Origin: Fervidobacterium sp. | GTDB lineage: Bacteria; Thermotogota; Thermotogae; Thermotogales; Fervidobacteriaceae | Assembly (NCBI GenBank): GCA_026419195.1 | Contig: JANZZV010000011.1 | Location: forward strand, 1-61,994 | DNA: 61,994 nt | Reading direction: 5' to 3' | Shown here: piece by piece, positions 44,745-51,130 of the stretch | Numbering within the stretch: position 1 is the first letter of the stretch | Layout of the letters: every line of letters begins with the position of its first letter | The notes under the pieces: generated by a model | Database searches by the model: none | Seen by the model: the letters and a program-made list of their open reading frames with translations, nothing else | What the model was told of the DNA's origin: nothing | Translations under genes and position numbers: made by a program

Positions 44745-45674
44745 GTGACAGAAATTCTTGAAAAAGTGCAAAAAGTATTTGCGAATATAAAAGTTGCGGA
44801 ATTTATGACAAAGGATGTTGTATATGTAAAACCAGACAGAACAGTGGCTCAAGTGAAAGAGATATTAAGGCTTAAAAGAATCTCAGGTGTGCCGGTGCTA
44901 GATGAAGATGGTAAAGTTGTGGGAATTATAAGCATTGAAGATATAATCAAATGTCTTGAAAATGGCACACTAAACGAAAAAGTTTCGGAACACATGACCA
45001 AAAATGTTGTTTGTTTAAACAGTGATGCGACTCTTCAGGATGTGATAAAACAATTTGAGAGGTATAAATATGGAAGATTTCCCGTTATCGATAGCGAACA
45101 AAAACTTGTTGGCATAGTTACAAAAAACGACATCTTAGCTGCTGTAGCAACACGTCTTGGTTTGTTGTACCTTCACGATGAAAGGCGGAAAGAAGTGCTT
45201 GATTCCGATATACTGAACAGATCTCTAATCACAGGAGAAGAAATAAATAAGAAGGGAGCCGATTTTTATTTCAAGATAGATTATTTTGATGTCAATCTTG
45301 CTGGAGTTGGTGCAGCTCAACTGAAAAAATTTTTGCTCAGCAAAGGAGTCAAAGACAATGTTGTTAGAAGAGTGGCAGTAGCGGCTTATGAGGCAGAAAC
45401 CAATGTGGTAATTCACAGTGGTAGTGAGGGTGAACTTTATTGTTTCATAGCAGATGATAGAATAATCATCAGAGTGGAAGATACAGGAAAAGGGATAGAG
45501 AACATCGAGCTTGCAATGAAAGAAGGATACTCAACAGCACCAGATTATGTGCGCGAACTAGGATTTGGTGCCGGTATGGGCTTACCAAACATGCGGCGCT
45601 TTTCAGATAAGATGGTTGTACTTTCCGAAAAGGGAAAAGGCGTTGTTGTTGAAATGGTTTTCTACTTAAACTAA
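44745..45674 (+). CDS. Two CBS domains fused to an RsbW/SpoIIAB-like ATPase domain
   Basis: The protein has 309 residues. A CBS pair occupies residues about 15-135 (EFMTKDVVYVKPDRTVAQVKE and EHMTKNVVCLNSDATLQDVI), followed after a linker by a HATPase domain of the anti-sigma/serine-kinase type. The latter has an N-box in EAETNVVIHS, G1 in RVEDTGKGIENIE and G2 in GAGMGLPNMRR. CBS domains bind adenosine ligands, so the kinase may sense energy charge. GTG start with GGAGTGA upstream. The target protein is not evident nearby. Confidence 0.85.
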   Translation: MTEILEKVQKVFANIKVAEFMTKDVVYVKPDRTVAQVKEILRLKRISGVPVLDEDGKVVGIISIEDIIKCLENGTLNEKVSEHMTKNVVCLNSDATLQDVIKQFERYKYGRFPVIDSEQKLVGIVTKNDILAAVATRLGLLYLHDERRKEVLDSDILNRSLITGEEINKKGADFYFKIDYFDVNLAGVGAAQLKKFLLSKGVKDNVVRRVAVAAYEAETNVVIHSGSEGELYCFIADDRIIIRVEDTGKGIENIELAMKEGYSTAPDYVRELGFGAGMGLPNMRRFSDKMVVLSEKGKGVVVEMVFYLN

Positions 45675-45760: not shown

Positions 45761-46420
45761 GTGGATAACACGATGATGTGGGTACTTGTAGGTGTTTTAG
45801 CGGCTGTTTTAATAGTTGGTGGTATATTCTTACTTATGCCAAAAGAGAGATATATTGAAGTTGATGGTGTCAAGATTTGGATGATTCCAGACGATGCAGA
45901 AGTTACGTTTATAAACCAAGCACAAGCAAATGCTGTGAAAAGTCTGAAGCAAAAGAATCAGCTTGTGGCATTCGTAGGTGAAGCTCAAGGTACAGGTACG
46001 GCACAAGATCAAGAAGTTGCAAAAATAAGAGCATTCCAGCAGGTAGCAGAGTTTTTGAACGCAAAGGTAACTACATTTGCCCAATTAGTTGAAGGTCAGC
46101 TGCAGAATGTCCAGGTCTCTGGTAAAAAACAAGATATTGTTAGTGCTTCAGTTAGTGCGTACAAAAGAGTCAGCGAACTTTTTGCTCAGGGAAGAGTTTC
46201 CGGTGCATATGTCTTTGCTGTATGGAGAGTTAAAAAAGGCAATATTGTTAACACTTACTCTTTACTCGTTTACGATCCTGGTGCAATATTGAAACTTGTC
46301 GAACTTGATGCGCAAGTTCAAAGAACAGTTGAGGAACTTGGAAAACAAGGTGTTGACTTCTTCAAAAACTTGAATGATGTAATGATGGAAGCCACAAAGG
46401 GGACACCAATGCAAAAGTAA
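45761..46420 (+). CDS. Membrane-anchored LPP20-like protein, paralogue 1
   Basis: The protein has 219 residues. One N-terminal helix (MWVLVGVLAAVLIVGGIFLL) anchors it; the rest is a single domain (about 30-205) with VAKIRAFQQVAEFLNAKVTTFAQLVEGQL, SAYKRVSELFAQGRVSGAYVFAVW and YSLLVYDP. This matches the LPP20-type pattern of envelope proteins but lacks a lipobox Cys. The same domain is in the proteins at 46494 and 50426. It starts with GTG after GGAGGGGAT and is followed by a terminator, so it may be made in excess over the next gene. Confidence 0.65.
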   Translation: MDNTMMWVLVGVLAAVLIVGGIFLLMPKERYIEVDGVKIWMIPDDAEVTFINQAQANAVKSLKQKNQLVAFVGEAQGTGTAQDQEVAKIRAFQQVAEFLNAKVTTFAQLVEGQLQNVQVSGKKQDIVSASVSAYKRVSELFAQGRVSGAYVFAVWRVKKGNIVNTYSLLVYDPGAILKLVELDAQVQRTVEELGKQGVDFFKNLNDVMMEATKGTPMQK

Positions 46421-46434
46421 TTGCTCTTTTTCAT

Positions 46435-46468
46435 CACCCCCTGCAATAATGCAGGGGGTTATTTCTTT
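46435..46468 (+). terminator. Internal terminator between LPP20-like paralogues 1 and 2
   Basis: The stem ACCCCCTGCA/TGCAGGGGGT with loop ATAA is followed by TATTTCTTTT. It lies between two genes of the same cluster on the same strand, so it probably attenuates rather than isolates expression of the downstream genes. Confidence 0.85.
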
Positions 46469-46493
46469 TGAAGAAGTATTTGGAGGTGATTTA

Positions 46494-49187
46494 ATGGACA
46501 ATACAGCACTTGTATTAATAGCCTTAGCCATCGCAATTGGAATCGTTGGTTTATTTTTTCTTATGCAACCGAAAGAACAATGGATTCAAGCAGATGGACT
46601 AAATGTGTGGAAAATACCCTCAAATTCAGAAATCTTAGAAATTAACATTGCAAAATCTTCTTCTGTGAAAAAATTGAAGGAATCAAACAAGTTGATGGCG
46701 TTTCAGGGTGAACATGTAGGAAGTGGTGCTGTACAAGATAAAGAAGTTGCAAAGATACGTGCTTATCAACAGCTTGCTGAACTTCTAAACGCGAAGATTT
46801 CAACTTTTGCTCAAGTTGTGGAAGGTCAAATTCAAAGCTTACAAACGAATGCAGATAAGCAACAACTGAAAAGTGCCTCACTTAGTGCTTACAAAAGAAT
46901 TACCGAATTGTTGGCACAAGCTCGTGTATCCGGTGCATACGTTTACGCTGTTTGGAGGATTAAAGAAGGGAATAATTACAGAACATACGTGCTTTTAGTT
47001 TACGATCCAGAAGATGTTAAAAAGTTTTTACAAATTCAACCTGATGTAAACCAAACAATTAATGAGCTTGGAAGTATTGGAATTGATTTTTTTGGTGCAT
47101 TAAATAGCGTGATTGACGAGGCTATTAGAGGTACACCTCTTACTTCGAATATAACAGAGCAGGCCCAACAAACACCTTCGTCACAATCTTCGCAAACTCA
47201 GAGTCCACAACTAACGCAGCAAATTCAACCAGTTCAGCAGTCGCTTCAACCTGGTGTAAAATACATGAAAGGTATCGGAGAAGCTTACGGAAAAACAGAA
47301 CTTGAAGCAGAGGAACTTGCTAAGAAAAATGCCCTTGCAAATCTTTCAGAACAACTCTACGTAGACGTTCAAGCTATTACACGATTGAAAGATCAATTTA
47401 TGCAAGTTGTAATAGGTAACGAAGCTAAGGGGAAATTACAAACAGAGTACCAAAAAACAATTGAAACACGATCACAATTTGAGTTTGTTGATGTTATATA
47501 TAGAACACTCGACAAGAAAGCAACTGGTGGTAAGTACTATGCAAAGGTAGAAGCTAATGTTGAGGAAGAAAACGCAAAAATGACTTTTGAAACATACATT
47601 TCTCTAAAACTTGCAAGCACTTTAACCGATGGAAAACTCCCATTTTCTGCGAAAAAAATATTGGATAGATACGAACCAATGGTTTCAAAATACAAATTTC
47701 CGCCAAAAATATCACAAGAAATAGCTGCTTACATTAGCAAAGTTAAGTCAAGATACAATGAAGTTGATGTGACAATTAAAGACATTAATTCAAGAAAAGT
47801 TTTTGACACTAAAAGCGCTATTGAAGTTGCACAACTTATAAACATGTTGGATATAATTGCTTCTGATCTACCTGATGGAATCATAAATAGAGAGCAATTA
47901 AGACCTTTTCTTAAAGAAATCACTATAGACATTGCTGGACCAAATGAGCTAATTATAGGAGAACAAGCGACACTGCAAATAAAGACAAACAATTCACAAG
48001 TAACATTATTGAGGGTAATAAATAACAAAGTTGACGGCCAAGAATTAGTAAGCTTAAAAGACGGAAACGCAGCACTTTCGGGTGTTATAAAAGGTCTTGA
48101 TCCAAAGATTACTTTGAGCCTTGGTGGAATTGTTAACGCCACATGGGCACCTGGTAAGATCTTAGTCAACCCAGATTTTTTGAGAGTTACTTACAAAGAT
48201 AAAGATACAATAAGAATAATTGCTGGGGGAACTTCAAAACCATCTGGTGATCAAAAATTGACACACGAAAAGGCTGTTAAAGATGCTTTAATAAAGATTG
48301 TCAGAAAGGTAGCAGCAGAAGTATTGATAGGTCAAGATAGAGACCTGCTGGACGTACCAATTGATGATTACATAATAAATAAAGTGATATCCAGTACAGA
48401 TTATGAAATAACGGCTACAGGTGAGTATCAAGGGTTGTATTATACCGTTGTAAGTTGTACGGTAGATAAAAAACGATTTGAAGAGGACATCAAAGATGCA
48501 CTTAAAAAGGCGCCAACGGGTTTTGCTTTGCTAATAGTCGAAGGTGATACTCTTGGATACATAGAACCAACCATAACATCAAAATTAGTCAATTCCGGCA
48601 TAAAGTTAGTATCAAAAGATTTTTCAAAAAAACTCTTAGAAGAACAACAAAGACTTGGTTATAACATTACAACTTTTGGAAAACTATCAGCCCTTTCAGC
48701 GGCAAGGTACGTGCTATACACCAAGGCAAACGTAACATCTACATGGCTGAACGATTATAACATCTATTCAGTACGAATACTTGTAACTACCCAAGTTATA
48801 GATACGATAACAGGTAATATACTCTCTGCTCCGCAATTTGAGGACGTAAATTCTGGTGCAACAGTTCAGGCAGCAGTGTCAAAAATAGTAAGTAGTCAAA
48901 AATTTCTTGACTACACACAGCAGATAGTCAATACGCTTAACTTTGAGAATGTAGAAATAAAGAAAGTGTACAAATACATATTTATACTTGAGAGAGCGGC
49001 GTACGGTTCAATGCTCATGGACTATCTCAATGCAAAATTTGATGGTATCAAGATTTTGGAAAAGGTAGACACAAGATTAGTTATAGAAACAAACGTAACC
49101 CCAAGCGAATTAGAAAACTCTATGAAAGCCATTGATACACTCAAGATCAAGAAAATATCAGATGACACGTATCAAGTTACGCGTTAG
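46494..49187 (+). CDS. Large membrane-anchored protein with LPP20-like and FlgT/CsgG-like regions
   Basis: The protein has 897 residues from the ATG at 46494 (GGAGGTGAT upstream). Residues 6-22 form a membrane helix, and residues 30-205 repeat the domain of paralogue 1. A Gln/Ser/Pro-rich linker (about 220-255) leads to a second LPP20/FlgT-N-like domain (GIGEAYGKTELEAEELAKKNALANLSEQ, to about 365). A third similar unit is near 590-690 (KLTHEKAVKDALIKIVRKVAAEVL), and a CsgG/FlgT-M-like fold follows with DTITGNILSAPQFEDV. It probably spans much of the periplasm as a scaffold. The exact function is unknown. Confidence 0.65.
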   Translation: MDNTALVLIALAIAIGIVGLFFLMQPKEQWIQADGLNVWKIPSNSEILEINIAKSSSVKKLKESNKLMAFQGEHVGSGAVQDKEVAKIRAYQQLAELLNAKISTFAQVVEGQIQSLQTNADKQQLKSASLSAYKRITELLAQARVSGAYVYAVWRIKEGNNYRTYVLLVYDPEDVKKFLQIQPDVNQTINELGSIGIDFFGALNSVIDEAIRGTPLTSNITEQAQQTPSSQSSQTQSPQLTQQIQPVQQSLQPGVKYMKGIGEAYGKTELEAEELAKKNALANLSEQLYVDVQAITRLKDQFMQVVIGNEAKGKLQTEYQKTIETRSQFEFVDVIYRTLDKKATGGKYYAKVEANVEEENAKMTFETYISLKLASTLTDGKLPFSAKKILDRYEPMVSKYKFPPKISQEIAAYISKVKSRYNEVDVTIKDINSRKVFDTKSAIEVAQLINMLDIIASDLPDGIINREQLRPFLKEITIDIAGPNELIIGEQATLQIKTNNSQVTLLRVINNKVDGQELVSLKDGNAALSGVIKGLDPKITLSLGGIVNATWAPGKILVNPDFLRVTYKDKDTIRIIAGGTSKPSGDQKLTHEKAVKDALIKIVRKVAAEVLIGQDRDLLDVPIDDYIINKVISSTDYEITATGEYQGLYYTVVSCTVDKKRFEEDIKDALKKAPTGFALLIVEGDTLGYIEPTITSKLVNSGIKLVSKDFSKKLLEEQQRLGYNITTFGKLSALSAARYVLYTKANVTSTWLNDYNIYSVRILVTTQVIDTITGNILSAPQFEDVNSGATVQAAVSKIVSSQKFLDYTQQIVNTLNFENVEIKKVYKYIFILERAAYGSMLMDYLNAKFDGIKILEKVDTRLVIETNVTPSELENSMKAIDTLKIKKISDDTYQVTR

Positions 49188-49221
49188 TAAAAACCAGTTT
49201 CCCCCTATGGAGGTGGGATTT

Positions 49222-50388
49222 ATGCGTAAAGGTGTTGTGTTAATTATTCTTTCAGTATTATTATCGTTAATATTTGCAGCAGGTGGCATCACTGTCACTG
49301 AGAAAATAAAACTTGTCATCTTACCTGGAAAAATAGGTACCGGGTGGAATATGGATGAAGTTGATTATCTACTTTCTGTTCTCGAAGAGCAAGCACTCGA
49401 GCTTGGTAGATTCCAACTTTTTCCGAGATCAGATCTTCAACAAATTATGAAAGAACGAAATATGGTAGAATTTGGTGTGTCAGAAGCTATCCAAATCGGT
49501 AAACTTGGGGGTTCAAAATATGCTTTGCTTTTAACATTAACAGAACTATCCGCTGCATGGAGTAGTAAAACAAGTACTTACGAAGCAGTTTCACGCTATA
49601 CAATAAAATTGTACAATATCGAAAACGGTGAATTACTTGCATCGAAAACCATGCAATCCTTAGGAAGCTCAAAGGAAACTTCCCAAAAAGCTATAAGTAA
49701 TGCCCTGAGATCAACTTCTTCTGACATTTGGGTTGAGCTGAGGAATATATTTAAACTTGAAGCATATGTTAAATCTGTTCAAGGAGATACGGTCATTCTT
49801 GCTGGTGTTGATCCAAAACTTGCAAAAACAGGCTTCATATTTCAAATTGAAACGGAAAGAGGAACCGGTTATGTAAGAGTTTCGGGGACAAATAAAGTTG
49901 AACAAACCGTCGTGACAAAATTTTTGTATGGAGAGAGACCCAACCAATACGATGTTGCGATTGAATATCCAACACTTCCAATTCACGCAGGCTTCGGTTT
50001 ATCTGTATTTTCCTCTATGTTCGGAATTGGGCTGACTGCTTGGTCTGATGCAAGTGGTGACATACCATTACCAATTTATCTTGGTTTTGGAACTTTCCTA
50101 TTTTCTATTTACTCTGATACCCCAGCTTATTTAAATTTTGGTGTGAATCTGAAAATTCTTGAGATGGGGCGAATAAGTGCTTCAATCAACGGTGGGTTAA
50201 GTATTCTTGGCTTGTTTGATCTGAACAATTTTGAGCCAAGTTCAATTATATACGGAGCTTTTGCTGGTGGATTGGTAACTTACGAATTTAATCCAAAATT
50301 TGGTATTTACTGTAGCACTGGGTATTCTTTGTATATTAGTGGGGCTGGACCTTCTGGTATCAGTTTTCAAATTGGTGTATACTTTTAG
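49222..50388 (+). CDS. CsgG-like protein with predicted C-terminal outer-membrane barrel
   Basis: The protein has 388 residues from the ATG at 49222 (ATGGAGGTGGGATTT). It has a signal peptide (VVLIILSVLLSLIFAAGG) and a CsgG/FlgO-like domain (residues 25-165: KIKLVILPGK, LELGRFQLFPRSDLQQIMKER, AIQIGKLGGSKYALLLTLTEL). An intermediate domain precedes alternating strands at 250-388 that end in ISFQIGVYF with a terminal Phe, the usual outer-membrane barrel signal. CsgG-like proteins form rings or secretion channels. Here the family match is pattern-based. Confidence 0.7.
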   Translation: MRKGVVLIILSVLLSLIFAAGGITVTEKIKLVILPGKIGTGWNMDEVDYLLSVLEEQALELGRFQLFPRSDLQQIMKERNMVEFGVSEAIQIGKLGGSKYALLLTLTELSAAWSSKTSTYEAVSRYTIKLYNIENGELLASKTMQSLGSSKETSQKAISNALRSTSSDIWVELRNIFKLEAYVKSVQGDTVILAGVDPKLAKTGFIFQIETERGTGYVRVSGTNKVEQTVVTKFLYGERPNQYDVAIEYPTLPIHAGFGLSVFSSMFGIGLTAWSDASGDIPLPIYLGFGTFLFSIYSDTPAYLNFGVNLKILEMGRISASINGGLSILGLFDLNNFEPSSIIYGAFAGGLVTYEFNPKFGIYCSTGYSLYISGAGPSGISFQIGVYF

Positions 50389-50425
50389 GTGAGTAACTTA
50401 ATTTTTGAATACAGAGGTGGTTTGT

Positions 50426-51094
50426 TTGTTTGACTTCTTTTCTCAAAATTGGTTAATCATCGTATTAGTTTTTGCCATAATAAGTATCATGTTTATTCTA
50501 AGTATGCCGAAAGACGAATATCAATGGATCTTGGCTGATGGAGTTAGGATCCAAAGTATATCTAAGGAAGCAAAAATTGTTTATGTAAACAATGCTTTCG
50601 AGTCAAGAGTAAAAGAACTTAAGTTGAAAAATAAGTTGATAGCCTTCAGAGGTGAATCTATAGGAGGTGGTGTAGATACAATAAGAGCAAGAGATAAAGC
50701 AAAGATGAATGCATACAAAGAACTTGCAGAATATTTTAACGCTAAAATACAGACGTTCGCACAACTTGTTGAAGGACAACTCCAATCAGTCTCAACTTCA
50801 GGAAAAAATCAACAAATTAAAGATGCCGCAATAAGTGCCTACAAGAGAGTTACAGAAATGTTTTCAGAAGCTCAGGTCTCTGGTACATATATTTACGCTA
50901 TTTGGGAAGAGTACGCTGGAAGTCTTGTTTACACAAATGTACTTTTAATATTTGATCCAGAAGGTGCCATTGAAGCAGCCAAGCAAAAGGTATTAGCTGA
51001 TAAAGAATTGTCTAACCAAATTGAAGAACTTGGAAAAAGTGGAGTGGATTTCTTTAAAGCTTTGAACTCAATAATCGAAGAAGCGAAAAAATAA
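50426..51094 (+). CDS. Membrane-anchored LPP20-like protein, paralogue 3
   Basis: The protein has 222 residues from a TTG at 50426, chosen because AGAGGTGG lies 5 nt upstream; an in-frame TTG at 50405 precedes it. One N-terminal helix (WLIIVLVFAIISIMFILSM) is followed by the same domain as paralogues 1 and 2 (KMNAYKELAEYFNAKIQTFAQLVEGQLQSV, SAYKRVTEMFSEAQVSGTYIYAIW). It ends at a strong terminator and closes the cluster. Confidence 0.65.
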   Translation: MFDFFSQNWLIIVLVFAIISIMFILSMPKDEYQWILADGVRIQSISKEAKIVYVNNAFESRVKELKLKNKLIAFRGESIGGGVDTIRARDKAKMNAYKELAEYFNAKIQTFAQLVEGQLQSVSTSGKNQQIKDAAISAYKRVTEMFSEAQVSGTYIYAIWEEYAGSLVYTNVLLIFDPEGAIEAAKQKVLADKELSNQIEELGKSGVDFFKALNSIIEEAKK

Positions 51095-51098
51095 AGAA

Positions 51099-51130
51099 AA
51101 AAGGGATGGTTTACCATCCCTTTTTTATTT
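51099..51130. terminator. Bidirectional terminator
   Basis: The stem AAAAAAGGGATGGT/ACCATCCCTTTTTT with loop TTA has A/T tails on both sides. It serves the LPP20/CsgG-like cluster (plus) and lepB (minus). Confidence 0.93.

Follow-up and report, generated by a model that had tools for sequence, protein, structure and literature searches.

Four neighboring genes on a Fervidobacterium contig, here called A to D, may encode a scaffold that spans the cell envelope from the inner to the outer membrane, a reading to which we assign a probability of about 45%. The genes lie within a window of 61,994 nucleotides (the whole stretch of DNA that was analyzed), and a first-pass annotation made from the sequence had given their coordinates and sizes correctly (Table 1). 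A scaffold across the double envelope is suggested because three of the products are predicted to be anchored in the inner membrane and one to carry a barrel, and because they are built of the modules of Vibrio FlgT. Gene A has a GTG start codon, preceded by AGGAGGGG, and shows 80% identity to Fervidobacterium MAGs. Upstream of it, at 44745-45674, is a CBS-CBS-HATPase gene with a SpoIIAB-like kinase domain behind the CBS pair. The same gene precedes A in several Fervidobacterium genomes, following HD-domain and CoA-binding genes, and its position is taken by other genes in G072 and G076. At the other end of the cluster, a terminator-like inverted repeat was found by scanning the minus strand; it is symmetric and could serve both D and lepB.

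Table 1. Features of the four-gene cluster, with positions in the window and, where given, residue ranges in the encoded protein.
Feature	Position	Strand	Description
Gene A	45761-46420	+	219 aa; predicted signal anchor (residues about 4-23) and LPP20/SHS2-like domain
Intrinsic terminator/attenuator A-B	46436-46469	+	ACCCCCTGCA ATAA TGCAGGGGGT + TATTTCTTTT
Gene B	46494-49187	+	897 aa
B N-terminal part	46494-47132	+	residues 1-213; predicted signal anchor and A-type domain
B linker	47133-47240	+	residues 214-249, low-complexity S/T/Q/P; pLDDT below 50 at 215-247
B LPP20-like unit 1	47241-47579	+	residues 250-362; from profiles and model
B helical section (about 363-455), then Ig-like beta section (about 478-565)	47580-48188	+	from model only
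B second LPP20-like unit (candidate)	48189-48512	+	residues 566-673; from predicted secondary structure only
B CsgG/TolB-like domain (674-818) and small alpha/beta C-terminal domain (826-896)	48513-49187	+	
Gene C	49222-50388	+	388 aa; Sec-type signal
C Sec signal peptide and CsgG/TolB/FlgT-M-like domain	49222-49755	+	residues 1-178
C small beta domain, SH3-like as in FlgT-C	49756-49971	+	residues about 179-250
C 8-stranded OmpA/NspA/OprF-type barrel (predicted)	49972-50388	+	residues about 251-388; ends ...FQIGVYF
Gene D	50426-51094	+	222 aa, TTG start; predicted signal anchor and LPP20/SHS2-like domain
Terminator-like inverted repeat	51097-51126	-	between D and convergent lepB

Protein A, the N-terminal part of B, and D are paralogs, with a similarity far beyond chance: residues 1-216 of B are 55% identical to A (E = 3e-75), and D is 47% identical to A (E = 9e-54). 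The earlier proposal that one membrane-anchored domain recurs in three genes thus holds, with two motif blocks present in all of them, the first reading SAYKRVSELFAQ, SAYKRITELLAQ, and SAYKRVTEMFSE in A, B, and D, respectively, and the second FAQLVEGQLQ in A and D and FAQVVEGQIQ in B. An alignment search of the A family against the PDB gave one meaningful match, Francisella FTT_1539c (4qvr, E = 8.7e-4); matches to influenza haemagglutinin were taken as coiled-coil chance. FlgP, Lpp20, and FlgT share an SHS2 fold, and ring formation among them goes with an insertion placed after the SHS2 helix and before the second strand (PMC12222027). The A domain carries an insertion between these two elements, at about residues 115-147, modeled as a helix (122-142) at low confidence (pLDDT about 55-62), whereas the insert of FlgP is a ring-forming beta-hairpin. 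The likeness to the LPP20/FlgP family (PF02169) lies in the SHS2-like beta-alpha-(insert)-beta-beta domain; the window members differ in being signal-anchored rather than lipoproteins and in scoring under the cut-off of the family.

Each of A, B, and D has a single N-terminal helix preceded by an acidic, not a basic, residue, so that orientation is not evident from charge, and no lipobox cysteine was found in the three signal anchors. Clear lipoboxes mark the B orthologs of G077-G080 and G085 as lipoproteins, and likewise A-family proteins of G042, G044, G045, and G100-G102, which argues that the A-, B-, and D-type domains are almost certainly extracytoplasmic; from these lipoprotein relatives, we infer a periplasmic orientation for A, B, and D. 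Several members in family f3 have a basic N-region ahead of the helix. The N-termini of some A-family proteins (L025, L027, L030, L031, and L046) consist of (K/R)(G/A)-x-x-D/E followed by a hydrophobic helix and appear reminiscent of class III (prepilin-like) signals.

The AlphaFold model of B, built on a 53-sequence alignment (mean pLDDT 79.6), begins with a helix (4-23), followed by the A domain and the disordered linker, and its inter-domain geometry is uncertain (pTM 0.48). An SHS2-like beta-alpha-insert-beta-beta core is modeled at 68-76/80-114/148-158/161-170 and at 257-266/269-294/335-344/347-357. Two LPP20/FlgT-like units had originally been proposed for B, and profiles support the first of them. 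Although B itself scores 14.4 bits against Pfam LPP20 (PF02169), under the gathering cut-off of 25.9, its orthologs in sister genera reach up to 29.7 bits and a relative in G074 reaches 34.9 bits; in a profile-profile comparison (hhalign), the A domain aligns with this first unit over 96 columns (E = 1.3e-5). The second unit (566-674) gives no match in the profile-profile comparison and is a candidate from predicted secondary structure. The first reading had overlooked the helical section, the Ig-like section, and the CsgG/TolB-like domain at residues 674-818, the last of which aligns with the CsgG-like domain of C over 113 columns (hhalign, E = 2.3e-7), a similarity on which we regard the two domains as homologous. 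Foldseek places Vibrio FlgT as the best PDB match of the B model (E = 5.1e-7, probability 1.00); its many antibody matches were attributed to the Ig-like section. A 1365-aa lipoprotein in G074 (L096:3287-7384) joins the LPP20 and helical part of B to five fibronectin type III domains, and a VWA-domain protein in G088 (L098:4829-6853), with a weak LPP20 match, is encoded next to a B-like gene.

Protein C had been described as an exported CsgG-like protein with a barrel, and its Sec signal, its CsgG match, and its modeled fold all agree with this. Against Pfam CsgG (PF03783), C gives an E-value of 0.0016 and 18.3 bits, short of the gathering cut-off of 20.8; its orthologs score 23-32 bits, above that cut-off, and in G080 adjacent genes pass both thresholds (CsgG 25.8 bits, LPP20 29.7 bits). 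The AlphaFold model (21-sequence alignment, mean pLDDT 81.6) predicts a barrel of eight C-terminal strands, from 254-263 to 378-387, with a C-terminus typical of outer-membrane proteins and an aromatic F as the last residue. In Foldseek, C matches FlgT (3w1e) first (E = 5.3e-10, probability 1.00) and the LPHT ring chain 8z5n_0 (E = 1.3e-8), then GNA1162, CsgG, and PelC, and its barrel matches NspA, OmpA, and OprF (TM-score by target 0.60-0.65). The Pfam FlgT models gave no match to C at E up to 1, PDB sequence searches with C or its alignment gave chance matches only, and the viral fold library gave generic small barrels only. Overall, the CsgG, LPP20, and FlgT homologies first drawn by eye are borne out by profiles and AlphaFold models. 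As separate observations, proteins of G073 and G074 (L099:67-2316 and L100:1148-3532) join the CsgG/SH3 part of C to another long C-terminal region in place of the barrel, and in G080 (L085:5603-8559) proteins of 398 and 588 aa are encoded upstream of C-B. The 588-aa protein matches the C profile in its SH3/barrel part, so that barrel proteins of this kind may make up a wider family.

The fold matches to CsgG and PelC might suggest that C forms an oligomeric channel of the CsgG type that secretes an extracellular polymer or fiber, which we consider highly improbable. C and B (residues 1-178 and 674-818) appear to share the periplasmic alpha/beta fold of the CsgG/PelC/GNA1162 group (PF03783), but C lacks a lipobox cysteine, and in the model it ends in a separate 8-strand, OmpA/NspA-like domain in place of the shared-pore hairpins of CsgG; on this single-protein model, we rejected a CsgG-type pore. 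None of the genes nearby was recognized as coding for curli, Pel, or another substrate. The barrel itself resembles those of OmpA, NspA, and OprF but sits behind a CsgG-like/SH3 module rather than standing alone or at the N-terminus. It also seems very unlikely, if somewhat less so, that the CsgG/TolB-like domains reach inward and activate a class A penicillin-binding protein (PBP), as in LpoB-like regulation of peptidoglycan synthesis. A C ortholog does match LpoB weakly (E = 0.014), and in family f11 three tandem A-family genes have a Ham1-like gene and one for a class A PBP as neighbors (L028, L029, and L044). However, the LpoB match is under its cut-off, the fold is generic, and the PBP neighborhood is limited to f11. 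LpoB, moreover, has neither a barrel nor an LPP20 domain.

FlgT combines three parts in one chain: the LPP20-like FlgT-N, the CsgG/TolB-like FlgT-M, and the SH3-like FlgT-C. Vibrio FlgT (3w1e; LPHT ring chain 8z5n) thus has LPP20/SHS2-like, CsgG/TolB-like, and SH3-like units in common with B and C, whereas here the modules are divided and duplicated over several proteins, between B and C, with C adding an outer-membrane barrel and B an inner-membrane anchor and helical and Ig-like parts. TM-scores of B and C against the whole of FlgT are low (0.22-0.31 by target), which supports module identity but not relative placement. B and C are not members of the FlgT family, though they may work like FlgT. 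Among Thermotogota, the toga proteins OmpA1 (anchor) and OmpB (porin) are envelope proteins of the same phylum; CsgG and lipoproteins are not mentioned in the text of the paper on them (PMC3387000). Among the papers searched, none dealt with LPP20 or CsgG in Thermotogota.

The layout of the cluster varies among relatives. Fervidobacterium and its nearest relatives show two layouts. The order A-B-C-D is found in the window, G070, G072, and G076. The other layout, A-B'-D, has a B' without the A domain, and C is either located elsewhere (G067 and G068) or missing (G069 and G071), indicating that A, B, and D can do without C. In genera g3 and g5, C adjoins a lipoprotein B and A is located elsewhere; in other parts of the phylum, A-family genes often occur singly. 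Two genomes of one genus differ by the whole block: the flanks of G075 and G076 are collinear (77-81% identity), but G075 lacks the ABCD block, which is about 6 kb long. With the flanks intact, gain or loss there affected all four genes at once, and the cluster as a whole is dispensable.

These layouts bear on whether the four products work as one. The first-pass annotation had spoken of a four-gene assembly, which is too strong a term, since two congeners have C unlinked and two more keep A, B, and D without it. Alternatively, A, B, and D could form a periplasmic hetero-oligomer on the inner membrane, with C an independent outer-membrane protein that shares an operon with them in some species and takes no part in a four-way complex. 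Such an arrangement, which we think improbable, fits the genomes in which C is unlinked or absent and A, B, and D stay together, as well as the many genomes in which A is solitary; it fits poorly with the adjacency of C and B in four genera (the window, G076, G078/G080, and G085), with their related CsgG-like domains, and with the loss or non-acquisition of C along with the other three genes in G075.

A conserved terminator that separates A from B had also been overlooked initially; its hairpin has the form CCCCCTGC-loop-GCAGGGGG, and a T-rich tail comes after it. The hairpin is kept, with varying loops, in 8/9 orthologous loci, the window included, and hairpins also terminate stand-alone A orthologs. 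The case for the terminator rests on this conservation, since the terminator scan alone was not above chance (3 found against 3.7 expected). As the conserved terminator separates A from the genes behind it, the simplest reading is that A is made in excess over B-C-D.

In the envelope-spanning scaffold that we favor, A, B, and D would each place one N-terminal helix in the inner membrane and an LPP20/SHS2-type oligomerization domain in the periplasm, with A in excess owing to the terminator. B would be the long member, extending past its flexible linker with LPP20-like, helical, Ig-like, and CsgG/TolB-like modules toward the outer membrane. C would be held in the outer (toga) membrane by its 8-strand C-terminal barrel, with FlgT-M/C-like CsgG/TolB and SH3 modules hanging into the periplasm and perhaps packing against the related CsgG-like domain of B. 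The CsgG/TolB-type fold makes rings in CsgG, PelC, and FlgT. A link between inner membrane and toga, as had been suggested for the cluster, is compatible with this predicted anatomy, in which the anchors of A, B, and D and the modeled barrel of C would sit in opposite membranes; complex formation, contact between B and C, and a tethering role would be part of the proposed scaffold. It counts against the scaffold that the A domain is missing from some B proteins of Fervidobacterium. A flagellar outer ring, or a tether from inner membrane to toga, specific to Thermotogota, with the modules of FlgT shared out among several proteins, one of which is joined to an outer-membrane barrel, is a tentative suggestion that we hold at less than even odds by some distance.

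More specifically, the cluster could correspond in Thermotogota to the H-ring of Vibrio (FlgO/FlgP/FlgT), as a periplasmic or outer-membrane ring around the flagellar motor, which could stabilize the motor, help the flagellum cross the toga, or anchor stators. In Vibrio, the H-ring has been implicated in passage through the outer membrane and in assembly of the stators (PMC7990780), and, in gammaproteobacteria, it correlates with Na+ stators (PMC6375700). We judge this correspondence unlikely, though it accommodates several observations: by fold, the top PDB match of both B and C is FlgT, with the FlgT-like LPHT ring chain among the matches; the SHS2 fold is common to FlgP, Lpp20, and FlgT (PMC12222027); and flgA-flgH-flgI is preceded in G042 and G045, at a distance of 61 bp, by a gene for an A-family lipoprotein. 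Moreover, FliF is present in all 32 genomes with full-length A-family members and in 79/103 Thermotogota genomes overall, an association that gives 3e-5 by genome (hypergeometric) but only p = 0.07 by genus because the flagellum-less genomes represent a few clades. Against a flagellar ring, the A family is missing from more than half of the flagellated genomes, including all of family f2, and G039, G040, and G044 have no A gene at flgAHI. The cluster has no adjoining flagellar gene, and C has no FlgT Pfam match at the threshold given above. Finally, G075 retains FliF and FlgI without the cluster, and the flagellum-less G028 has a 426-aa C-like protein (49 bits, covering most of the profile); per these two genomes, an obligate flagellar role is not supported. 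The idea that a missing P-ring calls for an alternative ring was also rejected, as FlgI is present in 84/103 genomes.

To our knowledge, the connection of the toga to the cell body and the accessory outer rings of Thermotogota flagella are poorly known, and proteins A to D are named, testable candidates for either. If a ring or tether is indeed formed, they would be the first candidate, at the molecular level, for a ring or a link that crosses the toga periplasm. H-ring modules have reportedly been described in Na+-driven gammaproteobacterial motors, and the fusion of a FlgT-like module to an OmpA-type barrel would point to these modules being older and broader than such motors.
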